IMG/VR virus record: IMGVR_UViG_3300020385_000019
Coordinates: 1 to 55,979 of that record
DNA length: 55,979 bases
Strand: one strand, 5' to 3'
Source of the DNA: a virus
Shown here: positions 1-55,974 of the stretch, one piece after another
How the letters are laid out: every line of letters begins with the position of its first letter
How positions within the stretch are numbered: position 1 is the first letter of the stretch
Program-made: the position numbers and the translations under genes
The notes under the pieces: model-generated
Databases searched by the model: none
The model's input: only the letters and a program-made list of their open reading frames with translations
What the model was told of the DNA's origin: nothing

Positions 1-77
1 AGATGAAATAAAGGGGGTAAAAGAGGGATAAAAATAAATAGCGGTAGATGACTAAAGGCAATGAATCATTAAGTTTA
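1..77. repeat. 77-bp direct repeat, left copy (attachment region, probably attP-type junction)
   Basis: Bases 1-77 are identical to 55843-55919; the next base differs (a here, g in the right copy). On the minus strand the last 18 bases read TAAACTTAATGATTCATT, matching htpG codons for LNLMIH. The rest of the repeat does not continue as HtpG: an in-frame TAG follows at 52-54. The left copy therefore looks like the phage right arm joined to the phage left arm, not like host htpG. Integrase crossover probably lies within 60-77. Confidence 0.85.
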
Positions 78-135
78 ATAGCTTGCCCGTATCTGAACCA
101 AACTCATGTTTTTCAATGTTTTTTTCTTGTGTCAT
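52..135 (-). CDS. htpG: Phage-carried replacement N-terminus of HtpG (partial)
   Basis: The minus strand from the ATG at 133-135 encodes a 27-residue peptide beginning MTQEKNIEKHEFG and ending in GKLLNLMIHCL before a TAG. The segment LLNLMIH is the conserved start of HtpG (Hsp90 family), where it normally continues as SLYSNKEIF. The first 20 residues differ from the host version at 55894-55974, but both converge on LLNLMIH at the attachment core. I infer that after integration this 5' end is joined in frame to the distal host htpG beyond the left junction. In the sequence shown it runs into phage DNA and stops. The upstream AAGG about 7 bases from the ATG can serve as ribosome binding site. 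Confidence 0.65.
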   Translation of the reverse strand: MTQEKNIEKHEFGSDTGKLLNLMIHCL

Positions 136-155
136 GGTCTTGCCTTTTTCCGTTT

Positions 156-165
156 TGGTACACAA
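156..165. other. Candidate integrase arm-type site, left arm
   Basis: TGGTACACAA occurs here and again at 55743-55752 in the right arm. A further pair, TTGGTACTC at 168-176 and its inverse GAGTACCAA at 55704-55712, flanks the attachment core on both sides. Repeats placed symmetrically around the core fit arm binding sites of a tyrosine integrase. This rests on sequence repetition only. Confidence 0.45.
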
Positions 166-218
166 ATTGGTACTCATTTAGATTTTACAACGAATGTTAT
201 TCAACTAACATGGACTAG

Positions 219-250
219 AATATTGTGATTTAAGAAGTGTAATTCAAGGG
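219..250 (-). promoter_or_regulatory. Candidate promoter for the reconstituted htpG (heat-shock-like -35)
   Basis: On the minus strand CCCTTGAA (250-243) is followed after 15 bases by CACAATATT (227-219). The first element matches the sigma-32 -35 consensus; the second is only a partial match to the sigma-32 -10. Read as sigma-70, TTGAAT-N17-AATATT is also possible. The start codon at 135 would leave a leader of about 75 nt. Heat-shock control is inferred from the gene identity and the -35 box. Confidence 0.4.
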
Positions 251-3979: not shown

Positions 3980-6900
3980 CTAATCATTTTTGATTATGCG
4001 GTTAAATCGACTTCTTACCTCCCTTGCTGATTCATTGTCCATTATTAACTGCGCTCGCTTCACTGCGCTTTCAAATGAGCGGTCAGATAGATTTACTGGC
4101 GGCACTTGCTCACGCAGTAAAAAGCCAACATTGCGCTTACTAATCCCCGCTAAAAAGAGTATTTGCACAACTTGCCTGCGACTTGCTCCCCCTGTTTGAG
4201 CTGCTTTGATCAAGCGCGACATTTGCTTAAATGCTTGCTCTTGCTTTGTTTTGGCTCGTGCTTTGGCTGCGCTTATTTCTTCGTCAGATACTTTGTTAGG
4301 GTCCCTTAGTACGCCGCTTAGCTCTTTTCGGGCTTCGGCTATGGCACTGTTAAAGTCAAACGTGCGGTAGTATAAGCCGACCTTTGGATCAAAAGTTGAG
4401 CTTCTAAAGCCTGCAAGCGCCAGCATTTCATCTGATAGGCTGTAAGGCTTACCGGTTGATCGCTTAACATCACCTGCCGCCATGCCAATACGCCACGCAT
4501 TATTTACAAAGCCGGGTGCTAAACCTAATGCTAGATGGCTGGCTATATCTGCACTTTTGCGTATGGCGGTATCGCTCTCTTTGTATACTTGCCCACCGCT
4601 GCTTTTTTTATTACTGAGCACTTCAAGTATTTTGCTTGTTGTTATATCAGTGCCTAAAAATGGCGATACCATATCGCTAAGTGATGAGGCTATAGCCTCG
4701 TTAACAGGTTGGTCGCGCATCATGGCCTCTATTGGGCGTTTCCAGTAGGCGTAAGGGTCTAAGAACGACATATCAAAGTAACGTAGATTGTTATCGCTAT
4801 CTCGGCCTGCGTAAACAAAGGTTGAATTTTTTTGCCATGGCGGCGCTAAGTCTCTTAGCGCTTCTTCTTCATCATCGGTCACGCCAAACATGGCGGCGCT
4901 TAATGCAGATAGAGCAAACATGCCGCCACTGGCTAAGCTCATGCCTACAATTCGTTTTGCGCCCATTGCGCGTATCTCTGGGTTGTCCGACTTAATTTCG
5001 CTTGCAGCAAGCTTCATCATGTTGCCTGTGGTTCTAATGATTTCAGCCGGAAACGACACAAACGTACCCGCTAGCGGGAACCGTGACAGCCAAACACCTG
5101 CTTTGCCTACTCGGCTGTATGTTGGGTAGGTATCTTGTATGCGCTCAGCGGCCACTACCTCTGCATCACTTTCTTCCATACCAGTACGTATTAGTGCTGC
5201 TTTTTCATTTTCAAATCCGACTATTTTCCAAAAGTCATCGCCAAAGCGATAAAACCCTGTGGCCTTTGCAGTTAACCAGCGCAAGTTCTCCGTTGTTTTG
5301 TCGGCTAGTTTATTTAACCCATCAAAGCCTGTGTTGCTTCTGCCTTCAAGCATTTGGTTTATTTTGCCATCAGTCATCACCTTGACTATATCGCCTGCAT
5401 TAGCTGAGTCATAAAGCACGCCTAATTTAATTAAGCGTTTTATGTAATCAGATTCGCCATCGGTTACTTTTTCTTTAACTTGTGCGTTAAATGCTGCCAC
5501 GGCTTGCTTCATGTATTTTTGGTTAAAGTGCCCGTTGGCAACGGTGAAAAAGTACGCCGACATCACATTACGCATGGCTGTTGTGGGTGACAGCACAGTT
5601 TTGCCGTATTTAATAAGCCCGTTTAGTCGTATGGCTTTTTCTAGCCACCCCTCACCACGCTCACCGCCCATCGCATCTTCAAACGCTTCTTTTATTTCTG
5701 GCGTTGTCCACATGCCGTTTAACGGCGCGTACACTTCGGATTTTTCACCCGCCAGTTGTACTGTCGCATTAGGTGGGCGGCTGTCTTTTTCAAAAATGAA
5801 ATTGTTAATGCCCATATCGCGTATTGTGCTTAGTAGCTTATCATTAGCGATCATAGCTGACATTTTTGATACTGATTTAGCATAATTAACACGCGGATCA
5901 ATGTACTCACCTAGTAAAGCTCTGATCTCAGGTGATATATCTTTACGTGGTATTAGTGTAGATAAGTCTTTAGAGCCAAGCTTACTTTCAGCAATAAACG
6001 ATCCCAAGCTGTCGTAAGCGGTGCTGGTTTTAACCATTTCGTTCATGGTTACTTGGGCTTTTTGCTGTGCTTCTTTTGCTGTTGCGCCGTCTTTTTCATA
6101 TTGCTTCATTAAGTATGCACGGGCATCATCAATTACCTTGGTGGGTATTTTTTCAAACCACTTAGGATCATCGAACGCTTTATAGCTGCGGTTTAAATAT
6201 TTGCCCATGTTACCTAGCATTTTTTCAAGGCGTGCCGACTCTTTAGGGTCAAGAGTGCCATCCTCTGCAAATCGCTGATGAAGCTTGTTATTGACGCTTG
6301 CTACGTAGTCTTTTGTTAGCCCATCGATATGCTCGCGCATCAGTATAAGCGTGTCTCGCTCGCTTTTATTAAGCGCCTTGCCATCATTTTCACCCGTTAA
6401 AAACTCGTGGTATTTGGACCATTGCGCATCGGTTAATCTGTCAGGGTTTATTTTAGCGCTTTTCATTGCTGAATTTAGCTTCCCTACCAGCATAGACACA
6501 TCAAACTCATGCACCGCCACATCGCGATCACGGCCTCTCTTAGCTTGCTGGACGGTTTCAGGTAAATTGCCACCTGGCATAAACCAGCGTGAAAGCTGGC
6601 GTTTTATTTTTTCGCCTGCTGTTTTATCGGTTTCGCGTAGTTGTGCGTTTAGCGCCTCCCACTCTGGCACGCTTGATTTTTCAAAGCGGTCGCGGGTAAA
6701 CGCTTTTTTTACTGATCCCGCTATTTTGTTTGGCGCTGGGCTAGTGTCGTTATTGGCTGTGCGGCTGAAGCTTATGTCAGGGTTTTCCTTGACAATGTCC
6801 TCTTTAGTAAGTACATTTTTACTCAGACCCTGTGATGGTGAACCACTTCTGGACAATTGGAGTCCAACAAGTCGTACCAAAGCAGGGTTTTTGCCTTCAT

Positions 6901-9900
6901 TTAAGTATTCAAGCTCAAAACCTTTCAGTGCACTATCCGCGTTATCCTTTCCATACACACTCGCTATATTATTAATTTGAAGGTTACGTCCTGCTTTTTT
7001 CTCGAAGTGAACAGCTGCAATTATCGGATTGTTATTATTATCAACCGCGTCAATAAGCAATACCTTGCCGTGTGTTTTCGATTTGAAAACAGCTATTGGA
7101 TCAGATAAATGCTCTGGTAGGTTTGCAATTACATCCATGCCAACAGCGTGTTTAATGCCGTTGGTCGCTTTTTTAATGGTATCTCTCGATATTTGTAAAG
7201 ATAAGTCCGGAGCGCCAAGAAGCCTTAACACTTTTGGGGTTTTTCCTAGCGTGATCATTTGAGGATTAGATCGAAGTGAGCGCATCGCCTTAGCTAAATC
7301 TTTTCGGTATTGCTCGCTTTCGTTTGAGTCGCCATTGTCGCTTGGCTTATTTTTCTTTGAGCTTAAAGCTATACCGCCTTGTTGCTGCTCTGCTGTTTCG
7401 CGCTGCGCTTTGAATCCTTTAACTATACTTTCGAGCATGTCACGCATTGCGGTTACTTCGTCATCTTCACGATAAACAACACCAAGCTTATCTAGCTGCT
7501 TACGAATAAAGCGTTTTAATGCGTTCCACCAATATTTAACTTCGCCTTTGCTTGGTTCGTTTTCTACAAAGCGTGCAAAAATTTCTTCCGCTTTTACATT
7601 GTCGTCCATATCCCAATAGTCGTTATTGGCATCTTTCCAATACTGTTCAAACGCTTTACGGCCTTTGGTCTTTTTAATACGATCAATAAATTCTTGTTTT
7701 GCTTCTTTACCAATAACGGTATCAAGTCCACCATGCGCGATAGTTTCATGTGCTAGCGTTTGCTTTAAGTCTGTTTCGCTATCAATGTTTTCAGCAATAA
7801 CATAAACAGTATTGGACATTTCGCTATAGGCACCCTTAACAGTTGCGCCGTCAAGGCTCATGCGCCATAGTTTTTCTGCTGTGGCGGTATCATCAAGAAT
7901 ACTAACAGTGATCCCGTTAGCGCCTTTTAAGTCTTTAACAAACTTATCAGCAATACGCTGCGCTTGCTCAGTGCTGATTGATTTGCCGCTAGTTGGCTTT
8001 TTAGATTTTGAGAATAAACGTATTCCCTGACTGGTGTTTTCGCTTTCAACAGTATCAAACAATGTTTGATAAGCAGGGTTTATTTTCTCTTGTTCTTCTT
8101 TGTTGGGGTATGGGTAGGTGTTGTCAGACTCAAAACCCATCGACTCTGCTGCTGCCCATGCCTCACTGCCCACTACGTTAGCAAGGTAGTCGTTAGTTAT
8201 ACCTTGCTGATTAAGCTTATCAATAATGTAAGTTTCAAATGAACGCGCCGTCATTTCTACTGGTGTTGCCCAATATGCTTTAGACCGTCTTGTATCAAGT
8301 TCTCTTGAACGCTCAGGTAAACCACTTTGAGCAATAGCACTTTTTACATGTTTAAATGCACTTGCCATTTCTGGGCGTATTTCATCGCTACCCATAGAGT
8401 GCGGCGATTCTGTTATAAATTCGCCTTTTGTTTTTTGCTTACCAAAATAGTTGTCTAAGGCGTGCCACCACTCATGCGCAAGCGATCCTGAACCTGCCTT
8501 TTTAGTAAGGTTAATAACAACGCTGTTTGGTTCGTAATGTGCAGCTGCAGGATTTTTTCCACCTTTACCTCGCGCACCAAATGCGAGCCCTAGCTTACCG
8601 TTTAAACTTAATGCTTTTGGTGGTAAGTCTAATGCTTCAGCTAAATCCATTAATCCATCGTAAGCTTGGTTTAGATTCTTTTGGCGCTTAGCTTGTTCTA
8701 CCCAATTACCAAATTCTACACCTCTAAAACCAAACGTTTCACCAAACGTATCAGGCGTTACATTTTCAGCATAGCGTTCTGGTCCTATGCGCTCAGCATT
8801 AACCGGCTTACGCATACTAGGTGTTTCTTTTATTTTCTGTAGCGTTTGCTCGACTTCTTCGCGATTATTTTTAAGGTAATCTCTGGCTGCACCTAAATCA
8901 TCAAATGACTTTATTTTTAAAACACCGCCTGCACCTTTCCAGCCTAGATAAATATCTTTGGTGTAACGATCACGATAAACGCTTATTTTGCTTTTTTTGC
9001 CACTTGTAGCATTAGCGTTGTCAGTCTGTTCGGCTTTGATTACTTTAGTTAGCAGTGCCTGTACGTCACTTAATGTTTCGCTAGCGCCATCATAAACAGG
9101 GCGACCATTGCGCTCTATAAAGTAAAACACTTTACTAGGTGAATATGTTTTACCGCCAAAAATAGAAAAGCTACCAGAAGAAATTCGGTAATCTGCAACG
9201 TTTTTCAAGGTGTCAATATCAGCCTTTGCAATGGAAGGTATAGCGTCAACAACAGCGGCTAGCTTTGAGCTATGATTACGCATTCTTTGCATAACGCTTG
9301 CTACGTTACGATCACCATTCATTAAGTCTGCGGCAAATGACTTTAACGTATTAACTTTTTCAGCCCATCTTGCAACTTTTCTAGCCACTCTTGGCTTTGA
9401 TGGTATTTCACTTCTCATTGCAGCAATTAGCGCTGCTGACTCCGCATTAGCTCCTTTTTCTACAAGCTCTTTGTAGTTAGGCTCAGGCCATGCTTTGCTT
9501 AATGGTAACTCAGTCGTGCTTTTCTGATCTTGGATGGCTTCACTAAAGCCACTCCAAACATCTTTACGTGCACCGCCTAGCTTCTCTCCAAAGTCATCAA
9601 TATTCTCTTGCTTGACCGTTGCTTGATTGGTGCTTGATTTATTATTGGCAGGCTTCTCGCTCACTTTATCTTTCTGCTTTGCAACTTTTAACAGTTCAGA
9701 AAATGTCATTCCTATATCTGCGACTTTACTTAACCCATACCGTAGTGATGTATCATGATCAAAGCCCGCGCTTCTCGCTTTGCCATACGCTGATTTTGCT
9801 ATGCTATTATCATTAAATGTTGCGATAGCATCGTCATAGTCAGCTTTATTAACGTCCTCAAGCTTACCTATTGGGTTCAAGTATGACTTTTCGCCTTGCA

Positions 9901-12900
9901 ATGATGAATCACGCATACCGCCCATAACCATGCCGCCAGTACGCTTACCCTGTCCTCTCAGATTGCCCCAATCTTCTGTTTTTGTGTTGGCCAATTCGTT
10001 TTTTGTTTTATTGATAACTGCCTCTATTTCATCGGCGGTCATGCCATCCGCATTCAGTGTTTCAGGCAAAGAAAAACCGCTCTTAGGCGGCTCTGTTTTT
10101 TTAATTTGCTGATTTGAACTATCTGGAATTTCCGGATTGTTGGATTGAGCTGTAGGATCTTGGTTAAATAGAGGGGGCTCGCTATCACCAAACATATCAG
10201 GGCCGTTGTTTTGCTCTGTGCTTTCTGGCTCGGCTTCTGTTTCTGTAATAGGTGCGGTACTAGGTGCGGACTTTCCATCTTTAGGTGCGGATATTGAATC
10301 GCGTATTTGTTGAGCTGGTTTTTCTGCTTGTAATGTATCATCAATGCCAAACTCTTTACGCAATTCGTTATACGCCATGCGGTTAATGCTTTCTGGCGTA
10401 TCACTATTAAACTCTTGATATGTTTCAAACGATGATTCAGCGAGCGCTTTATCAATAGCCGGTTCATAACTTTCTTCTATTTTAGCCATGGCAACATCAA
10501 AGCCAGGTGAGCCTTTTTTAAGGCCCTGCTCTTTGGCTTGGCTCTGTAACCATTTGCGTTTAGTGGCTTTTAGTATCGGTGGTAGTTCGGCTGATTGTTC
10601 AGGATTAACAGCGTCTTGTTCACTATTTTCAAGTTTTTGCTCTGGAATAACACTGTTTTGTTCATTCGTAACAGTCTGGCTACCCTGCGTTTCGGTGCTG
10701 GGCATTTCTTTGGCTAATGGCACTAGCTGTTCAATAGGCGCATTTAAGCGGGTTACTTTTACAGTTTCGCCTTTTTCGCGTGCGGCTAACCATTGGTGAT
10801 GCCCGTCTAATATATAGTTGTCATTCGATACCAGTATAGAGCGGCTGCCGCCTTCAAACTCTTTCGCTTGCTTTACTTTTGCTGGCGAAAATTCTTGCTG
10901 TGTTGGTTTTAATGAGCTTGCTTGCACCTCATCTTTTTCATTGCCAATATCACGCGCTTTCATAAAATTAACCATAGCGCCGCGATTTTCAGCTTTGATT
11001 TGTGGCATTTCTGAACGCGGTATATTTTTGGTGCCGCTCTCCTTGGTAAATGATTGCCATTCATCATCAATCATTTCACCTGCAATATTCTTATTTTCTT
11101 CGCTATTCACTTTTTCCGTGTCAACGTTTAACGATAACGCTTCACCTTCTTGTTGGGCTGGCTGCGCTTGATCACCCTGTTCATTTTGCGCAACTGTATC
11201 AGACTCAGGACTTTGCTCCGCTGCTGCCTGCTCTGAATCTTGCTTGGTGCCGTCATCACCTTTAATCGTCCAGCCAAAGCCGTTATCAAAACTAACCGCT
11301 TTTGTTTTGTGGCCGGCTCTGCGTGCTGCGCGTGCTTCTTTACTTAGTAGCGCATCGCGTTTCGTTTTAAATGCTTCACCATTTTTAGCCACGTTAACGC
11401 CGCTTTCGTTACCGGCAAACACAATATCTTTTTGCGGCAATAAATTTTGCGAGTCTTTACCGGCTTGTTTTACACGCTCTGCTGCGCGTTGCTGTGGTCG
11501 GCCATCTTCACCAAAAATAATATCTTTTTGTGCAATGCCTTTAGGCTGTGACTCAAGATCCGCTTGTGCTTGCTCGCGCATTTCACGGTTTTTAGTTTGC
11601 TCAGTTGTTGGCAGCTTGCCTTGCTCGGGTACTGTCTGACCATCAATAGGGGCTTTTTCAATACCTGGCGCGTTCGGCGCTTCTGCTCTTATCAACTCGC
11701 CTTCGTGCTGATACTTTATAGGACTAAAGCGATCCTCTGGCGTTGGTGACTTGTCAAACGCTGCCGCTTTTACGCGTTCGTCTACAGTAGGTGCGTTGTT
11801 GCCTGCTTCTAAATCTTTTAACGATTGCTGTGCGGGGCTGGTAAGCATATCACCATACTGGCCGGCTGCTTTTGCTGTTTGATCAAAGCCTGCCTGCCTT
11901 GCGGCTGTTGGCGCATCGTAATCAATATCATCATTTTTAAATACAGGCGTTTGCGTATCTTCTGGTATTGTTTGCGCTTGCTCAACTTGCCGCGCTTCAT
12001 TCGTTACCCCTTCATCAATACCAAATTGATCTCGCACTGTCTTAGAAACTATTTCTTGCGCTTCTTGTTCGTTAAATCCTTTTTTTATAGCCGCTTCATA
12101 CTGCTGAGATTTAATTTTATCCATAGCTTCTTCTGGTGATATTCCAGCTTCAACCATTTGTTCGTAACCATCCTTTACAACCTGCTCAGATTTTTCCTTA
12201 AAGCTTTCAGCTCTGCGGTTGGCAATACCGCCTATTGCGCCTGCTGCCCCACCAAAGGCACCGCCAGCAATGCCTTCATTTAATCCTGCGGCTACAACTC
12301 CTTTCATTGAATCTCTATTATCAATAGGTTGCAAGGCTTCATTTATACCATACTGCTGAGCGCCAGCTTGAATAGACTCTGTTGTTCCTTCCGTTACAGT
12401 TCCAGCCAAAGCGCTCTTTAGCGCTCCACTTTTGGCTATTCTTGCACCCGTTAACGCCTTGCCTATAATCGGGTCGCCTATTGCGCTTGCCGCAAAATTC
12501 GCAACTAACACCTTGGGGTCTGTTCTTACATCTTGAGCAACACGACTAGCAATTTCATCTTTTGCCAAGTCCCATTTTTCAGCACCGCTAAGGCTTGGGT
12601 TTTTTGAGTGTATATCTTTTAGCACGCCTACAAACATTGGTGAATCGGCAAGCATATCATCAGGCATGTTTTGAATTTCCTGCCTTGCTTGCTCCATGCC
12701 TTGACCAGTGCCAGCCGCGCCACCTGTAGCGCCCATGCCTATAGCGCCTGCAACCTTGCTCCCTTTACTGCCTAAGCTCGCCACCTTTGTTACTGCTCTT
12801 GCTGCTGCGCCACCTGGAACCACTGTTCCTGCGAATTGGCCTGCAACATTGGCCATTGTTAAGATCCACGTATCAATATCCTTCATACCCTCACCAATAG

Positions 12901-13183
12901 CCATATCGCCATTAGCATCTTCGGTTATGAATTGTTTGTTTAGTGACTCTCTACCGCTTTCTGACATTGTTTTTTGCTGGTCATCCGACCAAGCATAAAG
13001 CGACTTAGCCACCCCCTCCGCGCCAACAAAGTCAAACATGCCGCCCATACCGCTAAGCGCCCCAGCTTGGAATGAGTCTGCAACATCACCGGCAAGCCCA
13101 TCGTTAAGGGTCGTGTTTTGACTTTCCTTTTCAATTGTCGGGGCTGCTTCTACGGGTGATTTTTCAAAATAATTATAGGCCAT
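3980..13183 (-). CDS. Giant polyvalent internal virion protein (3067 aa) with ParB-like, two zincin-type and MuF-C-like domains
   Basis: The last and longest gene of the late operon. Visible parts: glycine-rich, membrane-active-looking segments (about 138-160 and 298-322); a Gln/Glu-rich low-complexity linker; an LPD-type region ending FDNGFGWTIKGDD (about 624); a ParB/Srx-like segment with NDNYILDGHHQWLA (about 780); a first zincin motif HEWWHALD (about 1569); a second, HETIAHGG (about 1810); a MuF C-terminal-like domain (about 1976-2135, LGKTPKVLRLLGAPDL); then a long helical region with LSPTTAMRN (about 2524) and a hydrophobic stretch (about 2741-2768). Proteins of this kind in podoviruses are packaged and injected with the DNA. 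The domains suggest proteolysis and nucleic-acid or protein modification on entry. Domain names come from motif recognition; exact family borders would need a profile search. Confidence 0.8.
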   Translation of the reverse strand: MAYNYFEKSPVEAAPTIEKESQNTTLNDGLAGDVADSFQAGALSGMGGMFDFVGAEGVAKSLYAWSDDQQKTMSESGRESLNKQFITEDANGDMAIGEGMKDIDTWILTMANVAGQFAGTVVPGGAAARAVTKVASLGSKGSKVAGAIGMGATGGAAGTGQGMEQARQEIQNMPDDMLADSPMFVGVLKDIHSKNPSLSGAEKWDLAKDEIASRVAQDVRTDPKVLVANFAASAIGDPIIGKALTGARIAKSGALKSALAGTVTEGTTESIQAGAQQYGINEALQPIDNRDSMKGVVAAGLNEGIAGGAFGGAAGAIGGIANRRAESFKEKSEQVVKDGYEQMVEAGISPEEAMDKIKSQQYEAAIKKGFNEQEAQEIVSKTVRDQFGIDEGVTNEARQVEQAQTIPEDTQTPVFKNDDIDYDAPTAARQAGFDQTAKAAGQYGDMLTSPAQQSLKDLEAGNNAPTVDERVKAAAFDKSPTPEDRFSPIKYQHEGELIRAEAPNAPGIEKAPIDGQTVPEQGKLPTTEQTKNREMREQAQADLESQPKGIAQKDIIFGEDGRPQQRAAERVKQAGKDSQNLLPQKDIVFAGNESGVNVAKNGEAFKTKRDALLSKEARAARRAGHKTKAVSFDNGFGWTIKGDDGTKQDSEQAAAEQSPESDTVAQNEQGDQAQPAQQEGEALSLNVDTEKVNSEENKNIAGEMIDDEWQSFTKESGTKNIPRSEMPQIKAENRGAMVNFMKARDIGNEKDEVQASSLKPTQQEFSPAKVKQAKEFEGGSRSILVSNDNYILDGHHQWLAAREKGETVKVTRLNAPIEQLVPLAKEMPSTETQGSQTVTNEQNSVIPEQKLENSEQDAVNPEQSAELPPILKATKRKWLQSQAKEQGLKKGSPGFDVAMAKIEESYEPAIDKALAESSFETYQEFNSDTPESINRMAYNELRKEFGIDDTLQAEKPAQQIRDSISAPKDGKSAPSTAPITETEAEPESTEQNNGPDMFGDSEPPLFNQDPTAQSNNPEIPDSSNQQIKKTEPPKSGFSLPETLNADGMTADEIEAVINKTKNELANTKTEDWGNLRGQGKRTGGMVMGGMRDSSLQGEKSYLNPIGKLEDVNKADYDDAIATFNDNSIAKSAYGKARSAGFDHDTSLRYGLSKVADIGMTFSELLKVAKQKDKVSEKPANNKSSTNQATVKQENIDDFGEKLGGARKDVWSGFSEAIQDQKSTTELPLSKAWPEPNYKELVEKGANAESAALIAAMRSEIPSKPRVARKVARWAEKVNTLKSFAADLMNGDRNVASVMQRMRNHSSKLAAVVDAIPSIAKADIDTLKNVADYRISSGSFSIFGGKTYSPSKVFYFIERNGRPVYDGASETLSDVQALLTKVIKAEQTDNANATSGKKSKISVYRDRYTKDIYLGWKGAGGVLKIKSFDDLGAARDYLKNNREEVEQTLQKIKETPSMRKPVNAERIGPERYAENVTPDTFGETFGFRGVEFGNWVEQAKRQKNLNQAYDGLMDLAEALDLPPKALSLNGKLGLAFGARGKGGKNPAAAHYEPNSVVINLTKKAGSGSLAHEWWHALDNYFGKQKTKGEFITESPHSMGSDEIRPEMASAFKHVKSAIAQSGLPERSRELDTRRSKAYWATPVEMTARSFETYIIDKLNQQGITNDYLANVVGSEAWAAAESMGFESDNTYPYPNKEEQEKINPAYQTLFDTVESENTSQGIRLFSKSKKPTSGKSISTEQAQRIADKFVKDLKGANGITVSILDDTATAEKLWRMSLDGATVKGAYSEMSNTVYVIAENIDSETDLKQTLAHETIAHGGLDTVIGKEAKQEFIDRIKKTKGRKAFEQYWKDANNDYWDMDDNVKAEEIFARFVENEPSKGEVKYWWNALKRFIRKQLDKLGVVYREDDEVTAMRDMLESIVKGFKAQRETAEQQQGGIALSSKKNKPSDNGDSNESEQYRKDLAKAMRSLRSNPQMITLGKTPKVLRLLGAPDLSLQISRDTIKKATNGIKHAVGMDVIANLPEHLSDPIAVFKSKTHGKVLLIDAVDNNNNPIIAAVHFEKKAGRNLQINNIASVYGKDNADSALKGFELEYLNEGKNPALVRLVGLQLSRSGSPSQGLSKNVLTKEDIVKENPDISFSRTANNDTSPAPNKIAGSVKKAFTRDRFEKSSVPEWEALNAQLRETDKTAGEKIKRQLSRWFMPGGNLPETVQQAKRGRDRDVAVHEFDVSMLVGKLNSAMKSAKINPDRLTDAQWSKYHEFLTGENDGKALNKSERDTLILMREHIDGLTKDYVASVNNKLHQRFAEDGTLDPKESARLEKMLGNMGKYLNRSYKAFDDPKWFEKIPTKVIDDARAYLMKQYEKDGATAKEAQQKAQVTMNEMVKTSTAYDSLGSFIAESKLGSKDLSTLIPRKDISPEIRALLGEYIDPRVNYAKSVSKMSAMIANDKLLSTIRDMGINNFIFEKDSRPPNATVQLAGEKSEVYAPLNGMWTTPEIKEAFEDAMGGERGEGWLEKAIRLNGLIKYGKTVLSPTTAMRNVMSAYFFTVANGHFNQKYMKQAVAAFNAQVKEKVTDGESDYIKRLIKLGVLYDSANAGDIVKVMTDGKINQMLEGRSNTGFDGLNKLADKTTENLRWLTAKATGFYRFGDDFWKIVGFENEKAALIRTGMEESDAEVVAAERIQDTYPTYSRVGKAGVWLSRFPLAGTFVSFPAEIIRTTGNMMKLAASEIKSDNPEIRAMGAKRIVGMSLASGGMFALSALSAAMFGVTDDEEEALRDLAPPWQKNSTFVYAGRDSDNNLRYFDMSFLDPYAYWKRPIEAMMRDQPVNEAIASSLSDMVSPFLGTDITTSKILEVLSNKKSSGGQVYKESDTAIRKSADIASHLALGLAPGFVNNAWRIGMAAGDVKRSTGKPYSLSDEMLALAGFRSSTFDPKVGLYYRTFDFNSAIAEARKELSGVLRDPNKVSDEEISAAKARAKTKQEQAFKQMSRLIKAAQTGGASRRQVVQILFLAGISKRNVGFLLREQVPPVNLSDRSFESAVKRAQLIMDNESAREVRSRFNRIIKND

Positions 13184-23921: not shown

Positions 23922-24341
23922 TCAATAATTAGCATTTGATATTGCCCACATTGCTGCAAAATTATCTGTTGCAAGCTCATGCGCCTCTACTATTTCGGCT
24001 TTGGTGCACTCAATCATTACACCGGTATCTACGTCAGCCGTAGACCATGGCACTATATGACTGTCGGGCTTATCCATTATCTTAATAACTGCGTTTCCAA
24101 GGCGTATAATGCTGCGCTCGTTTGCATCAAACGACTTGCCCGATGCGATAACGACTGTTGCAGCATCTATCGACGCCTGGCGCTTAGCTTTAAATGACGC
24201 TACATGCGGCGGCTCTTGCGATTCTTCGTATGCTTTTTGACTCAGAACGGCTTCGATCGCGTCGCCATCTAAACCTAATTTGCTCATGTATTCAGTGCTT
24301 GTATCTGTGTGATACTCACCATTATGTAAATATTTAAACAT
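23922..24341 (-). CDS. DUF4376-type tail-associated protein
   Basis: 139 residues from the ATG at 24341, which has GAGG about 6 bases upstream; it begins 8 bp inside the end of the reverse transcriptase gene, so translation is probably coupled. The pattern KAKRQASIDAATVVIASGKSFDANERSIIRLGNAV, then VPWSTADV and ECTKAEIVEAHELATDN, is that of DUF4376, a family found next to tail fibre genes. Its role is unknown; assembly help for fibres or fibre capping are common guesses. Its position as last gene of the DGR block suggests a link with the variable tail protein. Confidence 0.65.
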   Translation of the reverse strand: MFKYLHNGEYHTDTSTEYMSKLGLDGDAIEAVLSQKAYEESQEPPHVASFKAKRQASIDAATVVIASGKSFDANERSIIRLGNAVIKIMDKPDSHIVPWSTADVDTGVMIECTKAEIVEAHELATDNFAAMWAISNANY

Positions 24342-25611
24342 AGTCGCCTCTTTTAAATGATTGGTTAAGTAGCTTTTTGCGCAGGTTATAACTATTTGCG
24401 TGACTTGCATGGCCTATCCATGACTGTACGGATTGATTTATTTCGGGTAAATTTACCTGCCCAAGCTCGTACTTTATATGAAAAATTTTTAGCTTTCGCT
24501 TTATGCTTTTTACACTGCTTTTGCGTAACAGGCGGTGGGTTGAGTAAATTCTATAGCCTAAAAAATCGAGCGCACGACCGCCTTTTTTGGCGATTGGAAA
24601 AACTTGTGTTTTGCTGTTGGTTTTTAGTTTTAAATGCTGCTGTAAAAAATTTTGTATCGCTATGCGCTGGGTGTGTAAGTAGTTTTTATTTTGATGAATA
24701 ATTACAAAATCATCCATATAACGCGTATAGTTTTTTGCTTTTAGCGTGTGTTTTACATACCAGTCCAGCTCATGAAGGTACACGTTGGCAAATATTTGAC
24801 TCGTTAGATTACCCAGCGGCATACCAACGCCTGGGCTGTCACTTGGGCTTGCGTCAATAATGTAATGCAGTAACGTTAATGTCATTTCGCATTTTATTTT
24901 ATTGCTCAATAGTCGCTTTAATATTGCATGATCAACGCTTGAGAAGTATTTGCTTATATCCGCTTTTAGCGCGTAGGCCACTCCATGCTTGCGCTCTATT
25001 TGTTGAATTTGCCTTTGCGCCACATCGGCCCCTCTGTGCGCGCCTTTGTTGTTTCGGCACGCATATGAGTGATGAATAAATGTTTTATCGAATAGTGGCT
25101 CTATAACATTAAAGATGGCGCGATGCACAACACGATCGCGAAAGTTGGGCGCTGATATTAGCCGGCGCTTGGGTTCAAATACATAGAAATGGTGGTAGTT
25201 CGATAGCTCATACGTTCCCCAGTTTAGTTCGTTATATAGGTTGATAACGTTTTCTTCGAGGTTGTTAAAAAAATTGAGGGTTGCCGGTGAGTTTGCCTTG
25301 CCTTTTCTGCACTGGTACGCTGAGTTTAATATATTCTCATAGCTGACTATTAAACTAAAAGTGCAGCCGGTTGACGCATCAACCGGCTTGTTCAGTGTTT
25401 CAGCAAGCGCTGAGGTTGCAGCATCCTTTTCAAGGTTGCACTGGCACAGCCCCGTGAGGTCGGTACTTCTGGCGTTATCAAGAGCTGGACGGAAACCAAT
25501 ATTGCTGTTCGCATTCGTGCGCGAGTTGTTGAAGTTGAGTGCTCCAAGCCCAGCATTGGACGTGTTGTTCCAATTGCCACCGCGATACGGCATACGCTCC
25601 CGCGTAATCAT
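24334..25611 (-). CDS. DGR reverse transcriptase with template repeat inside its reading frame
   Basis: 425-residue frame. The polymerase has the group II-like/DGR order of motifs: FEPKRRLISAPNFRDRVVH, LKADISKYFSSVDH (first Asp), GMPLGNLTSQIFANVYL (about 260-276, the DGR-typical GNLTSQ), and the catalytic YMDDF (about 297-301). The C-terminal part is a thumb-like basic region. The ATG at 25611 overlaps the avd stop as ATGA, so translation from it is likely. However, residues about 4-43 are encoded by the template repeat, and no other Met occurs before the polymerase, so the N-terminus may be a translated template plus spacer, or a non-ATG start may be used. The enzyme makes adenine-mutagenised cDNA from the template RNA for transfer into the variable repeat. 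Confidence 0.95.
   Translation of the reverse strand: MITRERMPYRGGNWNNTSNAGLGALNFNNSRTNANSNIGFRPALDNARSTDLTGLCQCNLEKDAATSALAETLNKPVDASTGCTFSLIVSYENILNSAYQCRKGKANSPATLNFFNNLEENVINLYNELNWGTYELSNYHHFYVFEPKRRLISAPNFRDRVVHRAIFNVIEPLFDKTFIHHSYACRNNKGAHRGADVAQRQIQQIERKHGVAYALKADISKYFSSVDHAILKRLLSNKIKCEMTLTLLHYIIDASPSDSPGVGMPLGNLTSQIFANVYLHELDWYVKHTLKAKNYTRYMDDFVIIHQNKNYLHTQRIAIQNFLQQHLKLKTNSKTQVFPIAKKGGRALDFLGYRIYSTHRLLRKSSVKSIKRKLKIFHIKYELGQVNLPEINQSVQSWIGHASHANSYNLRKKLLNQSFKRGDYV
25366..25387 (-). other. Perfect 9-bp hairpin in the DGR spacer RNA
   Basis: GCCGGTTGA and TCAACCGGC form a perfect stem around a 4-base loop (TGCG on the transcribed strand). It lies about 95 nt downstream of the template repeat, inside the start of the reverse transcriptase frame. 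There is no T-run, so it is not an intrinsic terminator. In the Bordetella phage DGR, RNA downstream of the template folds and is needed for cDNA priming; this hairpin is in the equivalent place. Confidence 0.55.
25483..25601 (-). repeat. DGR template repeat (TR)
   Basis: 119 bp that align without gaps to 26045-26163 (offset 562). The two differ at 16 positions, and at all 16 the template coding strand has A (T on the plus strand). The template holds 30 such adenines; none of the other 89 positions differ. Bases 25483-25501, at the 3' end on the coding strand, are identical in both copies and serve as the mutagenesis-homing boundary. Most variable adenines lie in AAC/AAT codons, as is usual in DGR templates. 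Confidence 0.97.
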
Positions 25612-26029: not shown

Positions 26030-27580
26030 TCAAGACTCAAATAAAGCTGGACGGAAACCAATAATGCTGCTCGCAGCCGTGCGCGAGAGGTGGAAGAGGA
26101 GTGCTCCAAGCCCAGCACCGGACGTGTTGTACCAAGCGCCACCGCGAGACGGCAAACGCTCCCCAAAATTTCGACTGTAGATGCTACCATTTAAAATAGC
26201 GCCGGTTGGCGGCTCAATACCCATTTGTCGCATTAGCAGGTTTTCAACGTAAGACGGGTCTTTGCTTGTAGTACGCCAAGTGTTTGAGTTTGTATTTCCA
26301 GAGTTTTGACTATCACCCAGCGTGCCTAGTCGATTCTCAATCATGCTATTTAAAATAACGCTTCCACTGGTTGCACCGCTTGAATCAAAATAGCATTCGT
26401 GGGCTGGCCAGTCCCCTTCAAGCATGTCAGGGTTATTATCAATCGGTGCAAATATCTGGCCTTCTTGCAGTTTGAGCTGATCTTGCCACTCCCACACGTT
26501 ACCAACCATATCGAATACGCCAAATTGCGTGCCGTCGTGGCTCCACGTTGCAGGGCCTGTGCCTGTGTAGCTCGATGCTGAATGACCAGTGTCGCCAGGC
26601 GCATGAGCTGCCGATGCGCGGGTTGCAACTTCGTGCTTTGCATCGTGTGCGCGTCCGTAGTTTGTATCGCCGCGTGGTTGCTCGCCAAATGCAAGGCCAT
26701 AAAATGCCACCGCAAGCCATTCAATATTTGCAGATAAATGCCAGCCTGTGCCTTTGTTTGTGCACAGTGATTTTGCGGTGTCGTAATTAACTGACGTGCG
26801 GGGCTGCACGCCTGCAACAACGCTGCATCCACCATTCTCGCCAGCGCTGGCAATGTATTTTGCATACCAAAAACCACGCATTTGCACACCGTTTTTAATA
26901 AACGCAGGAAACACGCCTGTTCCTAGCTGTAAATCAACACCGTGGCGCGCTAGAATTGCAGCGTTAACGTCCTCGCTGTTGAACTTAGGTATCCACACCA
27001 TGATGTTAGGGTTGCCTTGTGCGTCATATTTTACCGTGTTTTTGCCGCTACTCGCCGCCTCCACGGCCTCACGGTAAGCGGTTTGAGCGCGAGTTTCTAC
27101 TGCATCTCGCGCCGCATTCCATTCCGATCTTGCAGTGCTGGCGGCCTGCTCTGCATCATCAATCATTTGGTGCGGTGTTTTTATTGACTGCTTCAAGCCA
27201 TGGCTGTCGGTTAATTCTTCTGTCGCATTGCTAGAGTTTAACCAAGTGCGCAATTCATCTAAGAACAATTGCTTTTGGTTAAATTGAACTGACACTTGGC
27301 CCGCAATTCGTGTAAGTATTGTGCCGGAAGTGTTACGTAAAATTGCGTATGATTTATCTGGGCCTGTGCTGCCCTCAAAGCCACGATCAAGTGTAATGCT
27401 TGTATCACTATTAACTGCTATTACTTCATACCAGGTCTTTGCATCTAGCGTGAAAACATCACCAATAGCAATAGCAATTACATCGCTTTGCCAATTTGTA
27501 TCCACGCCAACGACTGATTGGCTACCACCAACTACGTTTACTTTACCTACGCGATACCACGCGCCTGCGCTTGCTGTCAT
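26030..27580 (-). CDS. DGR-variable tail protein with formylglycine-generating-enzyme/C-type-lectin fold
   Basis: 516 residues. The N-terminus (about 1-110) is beta-rich (MTASAGAWYRVGKVNVVGGS...GVDTNW...GDVFTL) and looks like a tail-attachment domain; a helical linker follows (about 115-180). Residues about 190-516 are an FGE-sulfatase-type domain: MRGFWYAKY, SLCTNKGTGWHLSANIEWLAVA, FGVFDMVGNVWEW, and the final GGAWYNTS...SRTAASSIIGFRPAL. This is the C-type-lectin fold used by most DGR targets. The variable repeat codes for the last 40 residues; 11 residues differ from those coded by the template, nine of them replacing Asn. The protein should be the receptor-binding adhesin whose ligand site is diversified. 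Confidence 0.93.
   Translation of the reverse strand: MTASAGAWYRVGKVNVVGGSQSVVGVDTNWQSDVIAIAIGDVFTLDAKTWYEVIAVNSDTSITLDRGFEGSTGPDKSYAILRNTSGTILTRIAGQVSVQFNQKQLFLDELRTWLNSSNATEELTDSHGLKQSIKTPHQMIDDAEQAASTARSEWNAARDAVETRAQTAYREAVEAASSGKNTVKYDAQGNPNIMVWIPKFNSEDVNAAILARHGVDLQLGTGVFPAFIKNGVQMRGFWYAKYIASAGENGGCSVVAGVQPRTSVNYDTAKSLCTNKGTGWHLSANIEWLAVAFYGLAFGEQPRGDTNYGRAHDAKHEVATRASAAHAPGDTGHSASSYTGTGPATWSHDGTQFGVFDMVGNVWEWQDQLKLQEGQIFAPIDNNPDMLEGDWPAHECYFDSSGATSGSVILNSMIENRLGTLGDSQNSGNTNSNTWRTTSKDPSYVENLLMRQMGIEPPTGAILNGSIYSRNFGERLPSRGGAWYNTSGAGLGALLFHLSRTAASSIIGFRPALFES
26045..26163 (-). repeat. DGR variable repeat (VR)
   Basis: Partner of the template at 25483-25601. The 16 changes relative to the template, on the coding strand, are A to T (5), A to G (5) and A to C (6), with no change at C, G or T. 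It codes for the C-terminal ligand-binding surface of the lectin-fold protein. The unbiased spectrum and the large number of changes show that this DGR has been active in the lineage. Confidence 0.97.
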
Positions 27581-44319: not shown

Positions 44320-44342
44320 AAACAAAACCTAAAATTAAAACT

Positions 44343-44409
44343 GATTAAAAAGCGCCCTTTTGTCTGCTAGCATGCAAGTGCGAATTACTAAACCAACAAA
44401 CAAAAGGAC
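44343..44409 (+). promoter_or_regulatory. Duplicated leader/promoter, copy 1
   Basis: 67 bp repeated at 45175-45241 with 5 differences, all in the first 23 bases; the last 44 bp are identical. It contains TGCTAGCAT, an extended -10 element, and ends with the ribosome binding site AAAAGGAC of the gene at 44416. Only the leader is duplicated; the genes behind it are unrelated. Confidence 0.7.
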
Positions 44410-45153: not shown

Positions 45154-45174
45154 ATCAAACCGCCTTCATATATT

Positions 45175-45241
45175 GATTAAAAAGTGTCCCTTCGTTTGCT
45201 AGCATGCAAGTGCGAATTACTAAACCAACAAACAAAAGGAC
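45175..45241 (+). promoter_or_regulatory. Duplicated leader/promoter, copy 2
   Basis: Second copy of the leader at 44343-44409, 832 bp away; bases 45198-45241 are identical to 44366-44409. It includes TTGATT (45173-45178) and the extended -10 TGCTAGCAT (45197-45205), and provides AAAAGGAC as ribosome binding site for the gene at 45247. Confidence 0.7.
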
Positions 45242-54126: not shown

Positions 54127-54308
54127 GAAAAACCTACGATCCTGAATTTCACTTTAACCATAAAAAACCTTGGCTAACAACTGAAATTCAATATTTAAAA
54201 GAAATGCGCGGCTATAAATCACTTCAAGACATTAGCTTAGCGCTTGGGCGAACATACAAAACCGTGGCTGATATGGTTTATAGATTAAAAAAGGCAGGTG
54301 ACTTATGA
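54123..54308 (+). CDS. Small helix-turn-helix protein
   Basis: 61 residues. WLTTEIQYLKEMRGYKSLQDISLALGRTYKTVADMVYRLKKAG is a Myb/SANT- or resolvase-like helix-turn-helix, with the recognition helix at TYKTVADMVYRLKK. It overlaps both neighbours by 4 bp. It may regulate or assist excision together with the next gene. Confidence 0.65.
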   Translation: MRKTYDPEFHFNHKKPWLTTEIQYLKEMRGYKSLQDISLALGRTYKTVADMVYRLKKAGDL

Positions 54309-54508
54309 GTTTACCAACTAGCAAATACTTAGTAACAAAAGATGTAGCCGCCCTATTCGGCGTTAAGCCAAATACTATTTTGGAATGGGAAAAAGAGGGT
54401 AAATTCCCGCCGGCTACAATTGTTGGAAAGCCTAAGCGCTGGGATGCTCAAGTAGTTGATCAGCATTGCCAAGCGCTTAGGGATCAAGCTACCCGCCTTT
54501 CAGCATGA
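54305..54508 (+). CDS. Excisionase/AlpA-like recombination directionality factor
   Basis: 67 residues with a MerR/AlpA-type winged helix: LVTKDVAALFGVKPNTILEWEKEGKFPPATIVGKPKRWDAQVVDQHC. It is the last gene of the rightward early operon and overlaps the convergent integrase gene by 20 bp, the usual place of an excisionase. It would bind attachment arms and turn the integrase towards excision after induction. Confidence 0.8.
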   Translation: MSLPTSKYLVTKDVAALFGVKPNTILEWEKEGKFPPATIVGKPKRWDAQVVDQHCQALRDQATRLSA

Positions 54509-55688
54509 GAACCCAACGGTTAACCCACTCAGTTAAGCCATCAAGCATTGGCGATTTATTGTATATCGCCAATACGCCTTTCATCTTATGCCCTAGCAAC
54601 TTCTCAGTGAATTGCAAAGGGCATCCCGCATCCGTTAAGTGCGTTGATATAGTCCGCCTAAAGTCGTGCATCCTAAACGGTCCAACACCTTCAATCGCTT
54701 CATAACACGATTTAGATATTTGGCTCACGCTTGAGCCGCTAGCGGGATGATCCCCATCACGGTTAGGAAACATATAGCTATACGATGGCGATTGCGCTTT
54801 TATATATTTTAGGTCCTCAATTAACTCGCTTGGTATAGGCCGAACGATAGAATGCAAAGCGCCCTTTGTGTTTTCTCTTTGAGTTGTAAAAAGTTGGTTA
54901 TCTAAATCAAAATCATCTTTTTTAGCTTTGCATAACTCACTTATACGACAACCAAACACCATGGCGCAGCGAAGTATCACTTTGTTTCTATCCGTCATGT
55001 TTATTTCATCTAAATTAGCCCAAATTAACTGGCACTCTTTTAGTGTTAAATAATGCTCACGGGAATCATAATCTGTTGCAAAATCGCTTGGCCTTAACGC
55101 TTCAAATTGCGTGTTGCTAATAAAGCCCTGGCGAATGCAAAACCTAAATACAGATCTGATCTCTATAATGGCATTAAAAGCAAAGCCTTTGCCTCTGCCC
55201 TTCTCAATAGATACATCACCCATCGACTTAAAAAACGCGGTAAAGTGCGTTTTATCCATTAGTGAAATATATTGATTGCCCCACGTATCATTTATACATG
55301 ACACCATACGGCTCTTTATACCTGCAGGATTATCGCGCTTTTTTAGGCAGTAATTTATATACCAATAATCAATGCAATCTCTGATGGTAGGATTTTCTAT
55401 TACCTCCGACTCAACCGCGTTGACGGCCTCCATATTTCGAGGATCTAAGTTTTGATTTACCAGTGCCATTTGCGCCGCACATTCAGTACGTGCTTGTGCA
55501 AGTGTCATTGCTGGATAGGTTCCTAATTTATATCGAACCTGCTTACCATTAATTCGATAGCGTATTTGAAATGAGATCTTACCCTTTGGCGAGATCCTTA
55601 ACGATAGGTTATCGCCGTCCGTTATTTCAGGCTTGCCGGCATACTCTTTACCGTTCAAGCTCTTTAGTTTGGCTGCTGTAATGTTCAT
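54489..55688 (-). CDS. int: Tyrosine integrase (P4-type, DUF4102)
   Basis: 399 residues from the ATG at 55688, which has GGAGAG 5 bases before it. The N-terminal arm-binding domain is of DUF4102 type (GDNLSLRISPKGKISFQIRYRINGKQVRYKLGTYPAMTLAQAR). The core-binding domain lies at about 90-190. The catalytic domain has Arg (FGCRISELCKAK, about 247), His-x-x-Arg (MHDFRRTIST, about 338), LLGH (about 365) and the nucleophile Tyr (AIYNKS, about 375). It acts at the attachment site 155 bp away, next to the right end. Confidence 0.95.
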   Translation of the reverse strand: MNITAAKLKSLNGKEYAGKPEITDGDNLSLRISPKGKISFQIRYRINGKQVRYKLGTYPAMTLAQARTECAAQMALVNQNLDPRNMEAVNAVESEVIENPTIRDCIDYWYINYCLKKRDNPAGIKSRMVSCINDTWGNQYISLMDKTHFTAFFKSMGDVSIEKGRGKGFAFNAIIEIRSVFRFCIRQGFISNTQFEALRPSDFATDYDSREHYLTLKECQLIWANLDEINMTDRNKVILRCAMVFGCRISELCKAKKDDFDLDNQLFTTQRENTKGALHSIVRPIPSELIEDLKYIKAQSPSYSYMFPNRDGDHPASGSSVSQISKSCYEAIEGVGPFRMHDFRRTISTHLTDAGCPLQFTEKLLGHKMKGVLAIYNKSPMLDGLTEWVNRWVLMLKGG

Positions 55689-55842: not shown

Positions 55843-55919
55843 AGATGAAATAAAGGGGGTAAAAGAGGGATAAAAATAAATAGCGGTAGATGACTAAAGG
55901 CAATGAATCATTAAGTTTA
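55843..55919. repeat. 77-bp direct repeat, right copy (attR region)
   Basis: Identical to 1-77. Here it continues to the right into host htpG, so this copy is the phage-host junction attR. The host-shared part is probably only the last 18 bases (55902-55919); the rest is the phage right arm. Confidence 0.85.
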
Positions 55920-55974
55920 GTAATTGTTTTACTTCTGTTTGAAAGCCTAATGTTTCTTTTTGTGCTGCAGTCAT
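55894..55974 (-). pseudogene. htpG: Host htpG 5' fragment cut off by the prophage
   Basis: From the ATG at 55974 the minus strand encodes MTAAQKETLGFQTEVKQLLN followed by LMIH, the typical start of gammaproteobacterial HtpG (Hsp90 chaperone). After LMIH the frame enters phage DNA and ends at a TAG (55894-55896) as a 26-residue peptide. The rest of htpG should lie beyond the left junction, joined to the phage-supplied N-terminus at 52-135. Confidence 0.85.

Follow-up and report, generated by a model that had tools for sequence, protein, structure and literature searches.

The DNA analyzed here carries an integration module that very probably replaces the 5' end and the promoter of htpG, the gene of the Hsp90 chaperone HtpG, and leaves a chimera that is read in frame. 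In this explanation, a module combining attP with a tyrosine integrase and a small MerR-like protein, the probable excisionase, would target htpG codons 19 to 25 (LLNLMIH), inside helix 1 of the Hsp90 N-domain, and recombination would detach the host heat-shock promoter together with the first 24 codons of htpG. The element would provide its own promoter, a leader, and a 25-codon start reading in frame into the remaining host htpG, and the lysogen would keep a single HtpG, chimeric in that its N-terminal strand is foreign, with an element-borne promoter. The host heat-shock promoter and a stub of 24 to 26 codons would end up directly upstream of int. Most likely, the main purpose of the donor start is to keep the host htpG working after insertion. 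This explanation is built on direct observation of the anatomy of the site, of junctions in relatives, of a single gene copy, of coding constraint, and of modular spread.

Attachment site and content of the phage genome

The window, i.e., the whole stretch of 55,979 bases that was analyzed, is an IMG/VR virus record with an 80-bp direct repeat at its two ends (positions 1–80 and 55843–55922, 99% identity, spacing 55842). This terminal repeat implies that the window consists of one full phage circle of 55,842 bp, followed on its right by 57 bp of host sequence. Since bases 1–80 recur at 55843–55922, the left end is attP sequence and not a host junction, the right copy being on the attR side. 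The same attP lies mid-contig in two related viral contigs (L002 and L003). A search of the window's own record for the HSP90 family gave no match, the record being viral.

The donor start is a 27-codon ORF on the minus strand at positions 135–52 (MTQEKNIEKHEFGSDTGKLLNLMIHCL), which reads MTQEKNIEKHEFGSDTGK followed by LLNLMIHCL and terminates after CL; its assignment as an HtpG N-terminus relies on its translation, on fused homologs, and on purifying selection. The end of this ORF is the attachment core, whose left form (CTATTAAACTTAATGATTCATT, positions 60–81, minus strand) has 22 bp identical to the empty host site (L031 and L072). At the right end, positions 55974–55894 of the minus strand encode another start (MTAAQKETLGFQTEVKQLLNLMIHCL), which differs from the donor start and matches the native Pseudoalteromonas HtpG start in a comparison of 48 host loci. 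This host stub, in which MTAAQKETLGFQTEVKQ is followed by LLNLMIHCL and a stop codon, was recognized by translation, by intact host versions, and by the same stub in relatives, and the DNA to the right of the attachment core is host. Both ORFs converge on one sequence at LLNLMIH. A second, different HtpG N-terminus merging with the host gene at LLNLMIH had been proposed for the left arm by the sequence-only reading, and the ORF at 52–135 and a promoter element at 248–220, both on the minus strand, are indeed present. Comparison of junction sites maps the exchange point inside htpG codons 19–25: in contig L158, the T of donor AATCTAATG lies on one side of it and the C of host CACTC on the other, and at the left junction of genome G108, it lies between TTAATG and the next C.

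The predicted donor promoter, CTTGAA-N15-CACAATAT (220–248, minus strand), combines a heat-shock-like −35 with a nonconsensus −10 and can also be read as TTGAAT-N17-AATATT. Between it and the donor ORF, a pair of GTACCA repeats with a 12-bp pitch (156–173, minus strand) is found at −38 and −26 from the ORF. At the other end of the phage, the tyrosine integrase (54489–55688, minus strand; phrog_1 match, E 3e-62) is encoded about 208 bp downstream of the stub stop codon, on the same strand as the stub, and a 67-aa MerR/HTH_17-type protein (54305–54508, plus strand) is the candidate excisionase.

The window phage is a temperate tailed phage with an integrase, a terminase large subunit, a portal, a CII-like activator, and an anti-repressor. 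It also harbors a diversity-generating retroelement (regions 24334–25611 and 26030–27580, minus strand) with a reverse transcriptase (PF00078). The template repeat (25483–25601) and variable repeat (26045–26163) are 119 nt long and show 16 mismatches, all at template adenines, and a gene encoding an FGE-sulfatase domain carries the variable repeat at its 3' end. Positions 3980–13183 (minus strand) encode a 3067-aa large polyvalent protein with LPD5, LPD1, and MuF_C domains, outside of which a Pfam search of this protein gave no match. Furthermore, a 68-bp direct repeat (44342–44409 and 45174–45241, 93% identical, spacing 832 bp) lies between early genes and is possibly a duplicated regulatory sequence.

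Junctions and spread of the integration module

The sequence-only reading had also suggested looking for prophages at this site, and among the 108 Pseudoalteromonas genomes of the genus search, the integrase profile (threshold E<1e-70) matches five, all of which contain the donor start. In these five genomes (G044, G108, G063, G065, and G095), the sole htpG is a chimera, in which the donor promoter and N-terminus are followed in frame by host SLYSNKEIFLREL, while the original htpG promoter and start are left upstream of int as a stub of 24 to 26 aa, the same host stub in each. The donor promoter and MTNQKDITKHEFGTDAGKILNLMIH continue directly into SLYSNKEIFLREL and the complete htpG in G044 and G108; in both, the original start ends in MIHCI and a stop codon, followed by int, about 55–57 kb from the chimera. 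The same arrangement is seen in G063, G065, and G095, with integrases 67–69% identical, the two junctions of G095 sitting on separate contigs. In-frame junctions of the donor start with SLYSNKEIF were found at loci L093/L146 (G044), L147 (G108), L094 (G063), L097 (G065), L098/L140 (G095), and L139 (G076, a sixth genome), as well as in L158 and L156. Furthermore, metagenome contigs from IMG/VR show attP, attL, and attR: L157 is the attP and L158 the htpG junction (attL) of the same element, with 430/430 donor upstream bases identical, and L159 is the attR (stub and int side) of a sister element.

The junctions in several genomes and the attP, attL, and attR contigs support the earlier proposal that integration exchanges the promoter along with the first 24 codons, while the remainder of htpG stays in frame. 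The expectation that the frame from position 135 runs into SLYSNKEIF holds at the junctions of relatives, the window itself being devoid of a left host junction. In these relatives, the junction is htpG and is in frame, and each of the six genomes with the donor start has one full-length HtpG gene and no second htpG. Chance is an implausible source, because the chimera is present, as the single HtpG gene, in all five integrase-bearing genomes. The sixth genome, G076, has the donor start without a close integrase and without the host stub, and translations reveal transposase-like ORFs upstream of its donor-type htpG start (L139, G076:C15:40001-47614). It is likely a relic whose swap has become fixed, although the contig stops 3 kb upstream.

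The elements found at this site are diverse. Those of G044 and G063 are related to the window phage and that of G095 is a different tailed phage, while that of G065 is not a phage but a mannan-utilization island (L166 and L167; G065:C11:55300-95299) encoding a TonB receptor, a GH26 mannanase, a GH130 (mannooligosaccharide phosphorylase), an epimerase, an SSF transporter, and sulfatases. Of 42 window proteins compared with this island, just two are in common, the integrase and the MerR-type protein of 67 aa, and therefore the mobile unit is the integration module, which occurs in marine phages as well as in at least one island that is not a phage. In wider sampling, the donor-start pattern matches only G044 and G095 among 397 genomes of the family and the integrase only G044 among 395 genomes of the order; the module was not found outside Pseudoalteromonas in these genomes and looks confined to this genus at this sampling depth. 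Among INPHARED phages, the att region gave no match and the integrase matches are all below 60% identity, so the window phage has no close named relative there. A search of viral contigs with the integrase of the G065 island found none, and a looser stop-after-LMIH pattern retrieved 23 stretches from viral contigs.

The donor N-terminus and the exchanged promoters

Over eleven donor sequences, pN/pS is 0.97 for codons 2–8, 0.17 for codons 9–18, and 0.09 for codons 19–25, values that are rough given few and related sequences (about eight independent) and 25 codons. The ratio is 0.26 in the +0 frame and 0.69 and 4.39 in the other two frames. These ratios indicate that the donor peptide is under purifying selection. 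Indeed, silent sites vary freely, which is unexpected if only attachment-site DNA were kept, and the donor start thus appears to be selected as a protein.

The swapped segment corresponds to the Hsp90 N-terminal strand and half of helix 1. In Hsp90, the N-terminal strand and the first helix form a dimer-swap switch: as ATP drives closing, they shift and are exchanged between the protomers (PMC4879513). AlphaFold2 predicts strand 1 and helix 1 at corresponding residues in both forms, namely, E8-11 and H14-27 for the donor chimera and E7-10 and H13-26 for the host form, with modest confidence in the swapped part (pLDDT 56-61 over the first 20 residues, 19-row alignment). The chimeric HtpG is predicted to be functional. 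A partial loss of HtpG function is possible because the donor FG(S/T)D replaces the FQxE (FQTE or FQAE) of all aligned native HtpG starts.

The host htpG promoter reads CTTGAA-N14-CCCCAT, the standard heat-shock promoter form, in 48/48 host loci. Because these loci were fetched with a pattern already requiring QTEVKQLLNLMIH, conservation at QTEVKQLLNLMIH is partly by construction; the promoter and the first residues are not within this pattern. While the host form is CTTGAA-N14-CCCCATAT, the donors share CTTGAA-N14/15-(C)ACAATAT, as CTTGAA-N15-CACAATAT in all donor sequences with an N14-CTCAATAT variant in G095. The sigma32 −35 CTTGAA is therefore present in all donors and a −10 of the CCCCAT type is absent from them. 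The donor upstream regions align poorly save for CTTGAA, CACAATAT, and the two GTACCA repeats, and the start codon, leader, and promoter-like elements stand at fixed distances across donor sequences. The donor promoter pattern has one match in the window versus 0.1 expected. It is plausible that the donor promoter is vegetative or mixed, its spacing fitting TTGAAw-N17-AATATT, and it would be weaker or less heat-dependent than that of the host. The earlier claim that the phage takes over Hsp90 expression is correct as to which promoter sits before htpG.

On the int side, int begins 201–211 bp below the stub stop codon, on the same strand, at seven junctions. The host CTTGAA-N14-CCCCAT is intact ahead of the stub and int in L006, G044, G063, G065, G095, and L159, with N13 in G108, and a scan of the interval between stub and int in the window found no terminator-like site. 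Heat-driven int transcription is possible, since the host promoter is retained ahead of int with no terminator-like site in between, and heat would presumably raise int transcription. The GTACCA repeats, which the int-side arm of each lineage also contains, are probably integrase arm sites. The motif TGTACCAA was considered as a phage-wide operator and dropped, as it shows no enrichment over the window and all lineages have it in their att arms, even the island that is not a phage.

Alternative readings and known 5'-replacing elements

Several readings go beyond or against the integration-module explanation. The exchange of promoters may have consequences of its own, htpG passing to a mainly vegetative promoter and int to the host heat-shock promoter, with a prophage that retunes Hsp90 and senses heat for excision. 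We regard this as a tentative possibility with well under an even chance: the donor −10 lacking the CCCC of the host promoter, the 17-bp spacing, the intact host promoter before stub and int in relatives, and the stub–int interval free of a terminator-like site in the window argue for it, but the donor −35 keeps the heat-shock form CTTGAA, and a promoter of its own, translation, or repression may restrict int. Doubtful as well is a control swap in one stroke, in which the sole Hsp90 gene would quit strict heat-shock control and gain a foreign ATPase-switch strand while the host promoter drives int and heat feeds excision. An adaptive change of the chaperone, the donor strand altering HtpG dimer closing and ATPase rate and, e.g., favoring phage proteins or weakening HtpG-dependent defense, is improbable. 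The position of the strand and first helix in the dimer-swap switch (PMC4879513), the contrast between native FQTE/FQAE and donor FG(S/T)D, the constraint on donor codons 9–18, and the support of Cas3 stability by HtpG in E. coli (PMC4782391) are consistent with it; however, the constraint is equally expected if a working HtpG is the sole need, and any adaptive benefit cannot be phage-specific because a donor start of this kind is also present in the mannan-utilization island.

That the fusion is accidental, the donor ORF being mere attachment-site DNA and lysogens being htpG mutants, is very unlikely. While the ORF of the free phage is a 27-codon stub with a stop, synonymous sites vary freely where the amino acids of codons 9–25 are kept, the full-length chimeric frames have no internal stops in six genomes, and a start codon, leader, and promoter-like elements stand at fixed distances. 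The least credible reading is an assembly artifact of the window record, which has a terminal repeat and no left host junction; the same attP, attL, and attR recur in independent genomes and in metagenome contigs, and these junctions refute an artifact for the system, if not for the exact left end of this record.

Replacement of the htpG 5' end by an integration module can be compared with known systems. Some elements restore a tRNA or protein gene at its 3' end: they carry the missing end, and the host gene survives. Such a case of 3'-end rebuilding is stated in PMC3715440. Likewise, the htpG module carries the missing gene end and the host gene survives, but it is the 5' end and promoter that htpG loses, so that sequence and control both change.

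The sequence-only reading took a swap at the 5' end to be unusual, but it has precedents: replacement of the 5' end and promoter is already known from SXT in prfC and from dusA islands (PMC4482086, PMC8409611). IMEVchUSA3 gives dusA a new promoter and an altered N-terminus, with dusA still expressed at a lower level (PMC8409611), and the promoter and replacement beta strand of dusA islands were described by Farrugia et al. 2015 (PMC4482086). As far as the account in PMC8409611 goes, SXT makes the same kind of swap in prfC, with a new promoter and N-terminus; for SXT/R391 ICEs in prfC, Hochhut and Waldor 1999 is the work cited in PMC8409611 and PMC2791158. What the altered N-terminus does is stated to be unknown for both dusA and prfC (PMC8409611).

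Like dusA islands and prophages, the htpG module has a tyrosine integrase, inserts in the 5' end of a conserved gene, brings a predicted promoter and an in-frame altered N-terminus that includes a replacement beta strand, and is common to islands and phages. Unlike them, it targets an Hsp90 chaperone with a heat-shock promoter and not a tRNA-modifying enzyme, its donor promoter retains a heat-shock-type −35, and one relic (G076) retains the donor start alone. With SXT/R391 in prfC, as far as described in those sources, it has in common 5'-end integration with a new promoter, here a predicted one, and a new N-terminus, a likeness that concerns the mechanism, whereas SXT/R391 is a conjugative element with another target gene. 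Several hallmarks of 5'-replacing elements are found here, namely, an adjoining tyrosine recombinase, a site in the 5' coding part, and an in-frame new N-terminus, with the conserved promoter-like CTTGAA-N14/15-(C)ACAATAT upstream of the donor start. A search of the open-access literature turned up no paper that describes htpG as an attachment site, and three features appear to be new: htpG as the target, the change in its heat-shock promoter, and the promoter exchange between htpG and int.

The mechanism is thus that of known 5' swaps, with an unusually consequential target: a widely conserved chaperone receives a new promoter and a new N-terminal switch from a mobile element, apparently without being inactivated. 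Hsp90 is a target in which the effect of an altered N-terminus can be assayed well. These natural N-terminal swaps could serve to test which residues set the ATPase cycle, and the natural promoter swaps to test the value of heat-shock control.
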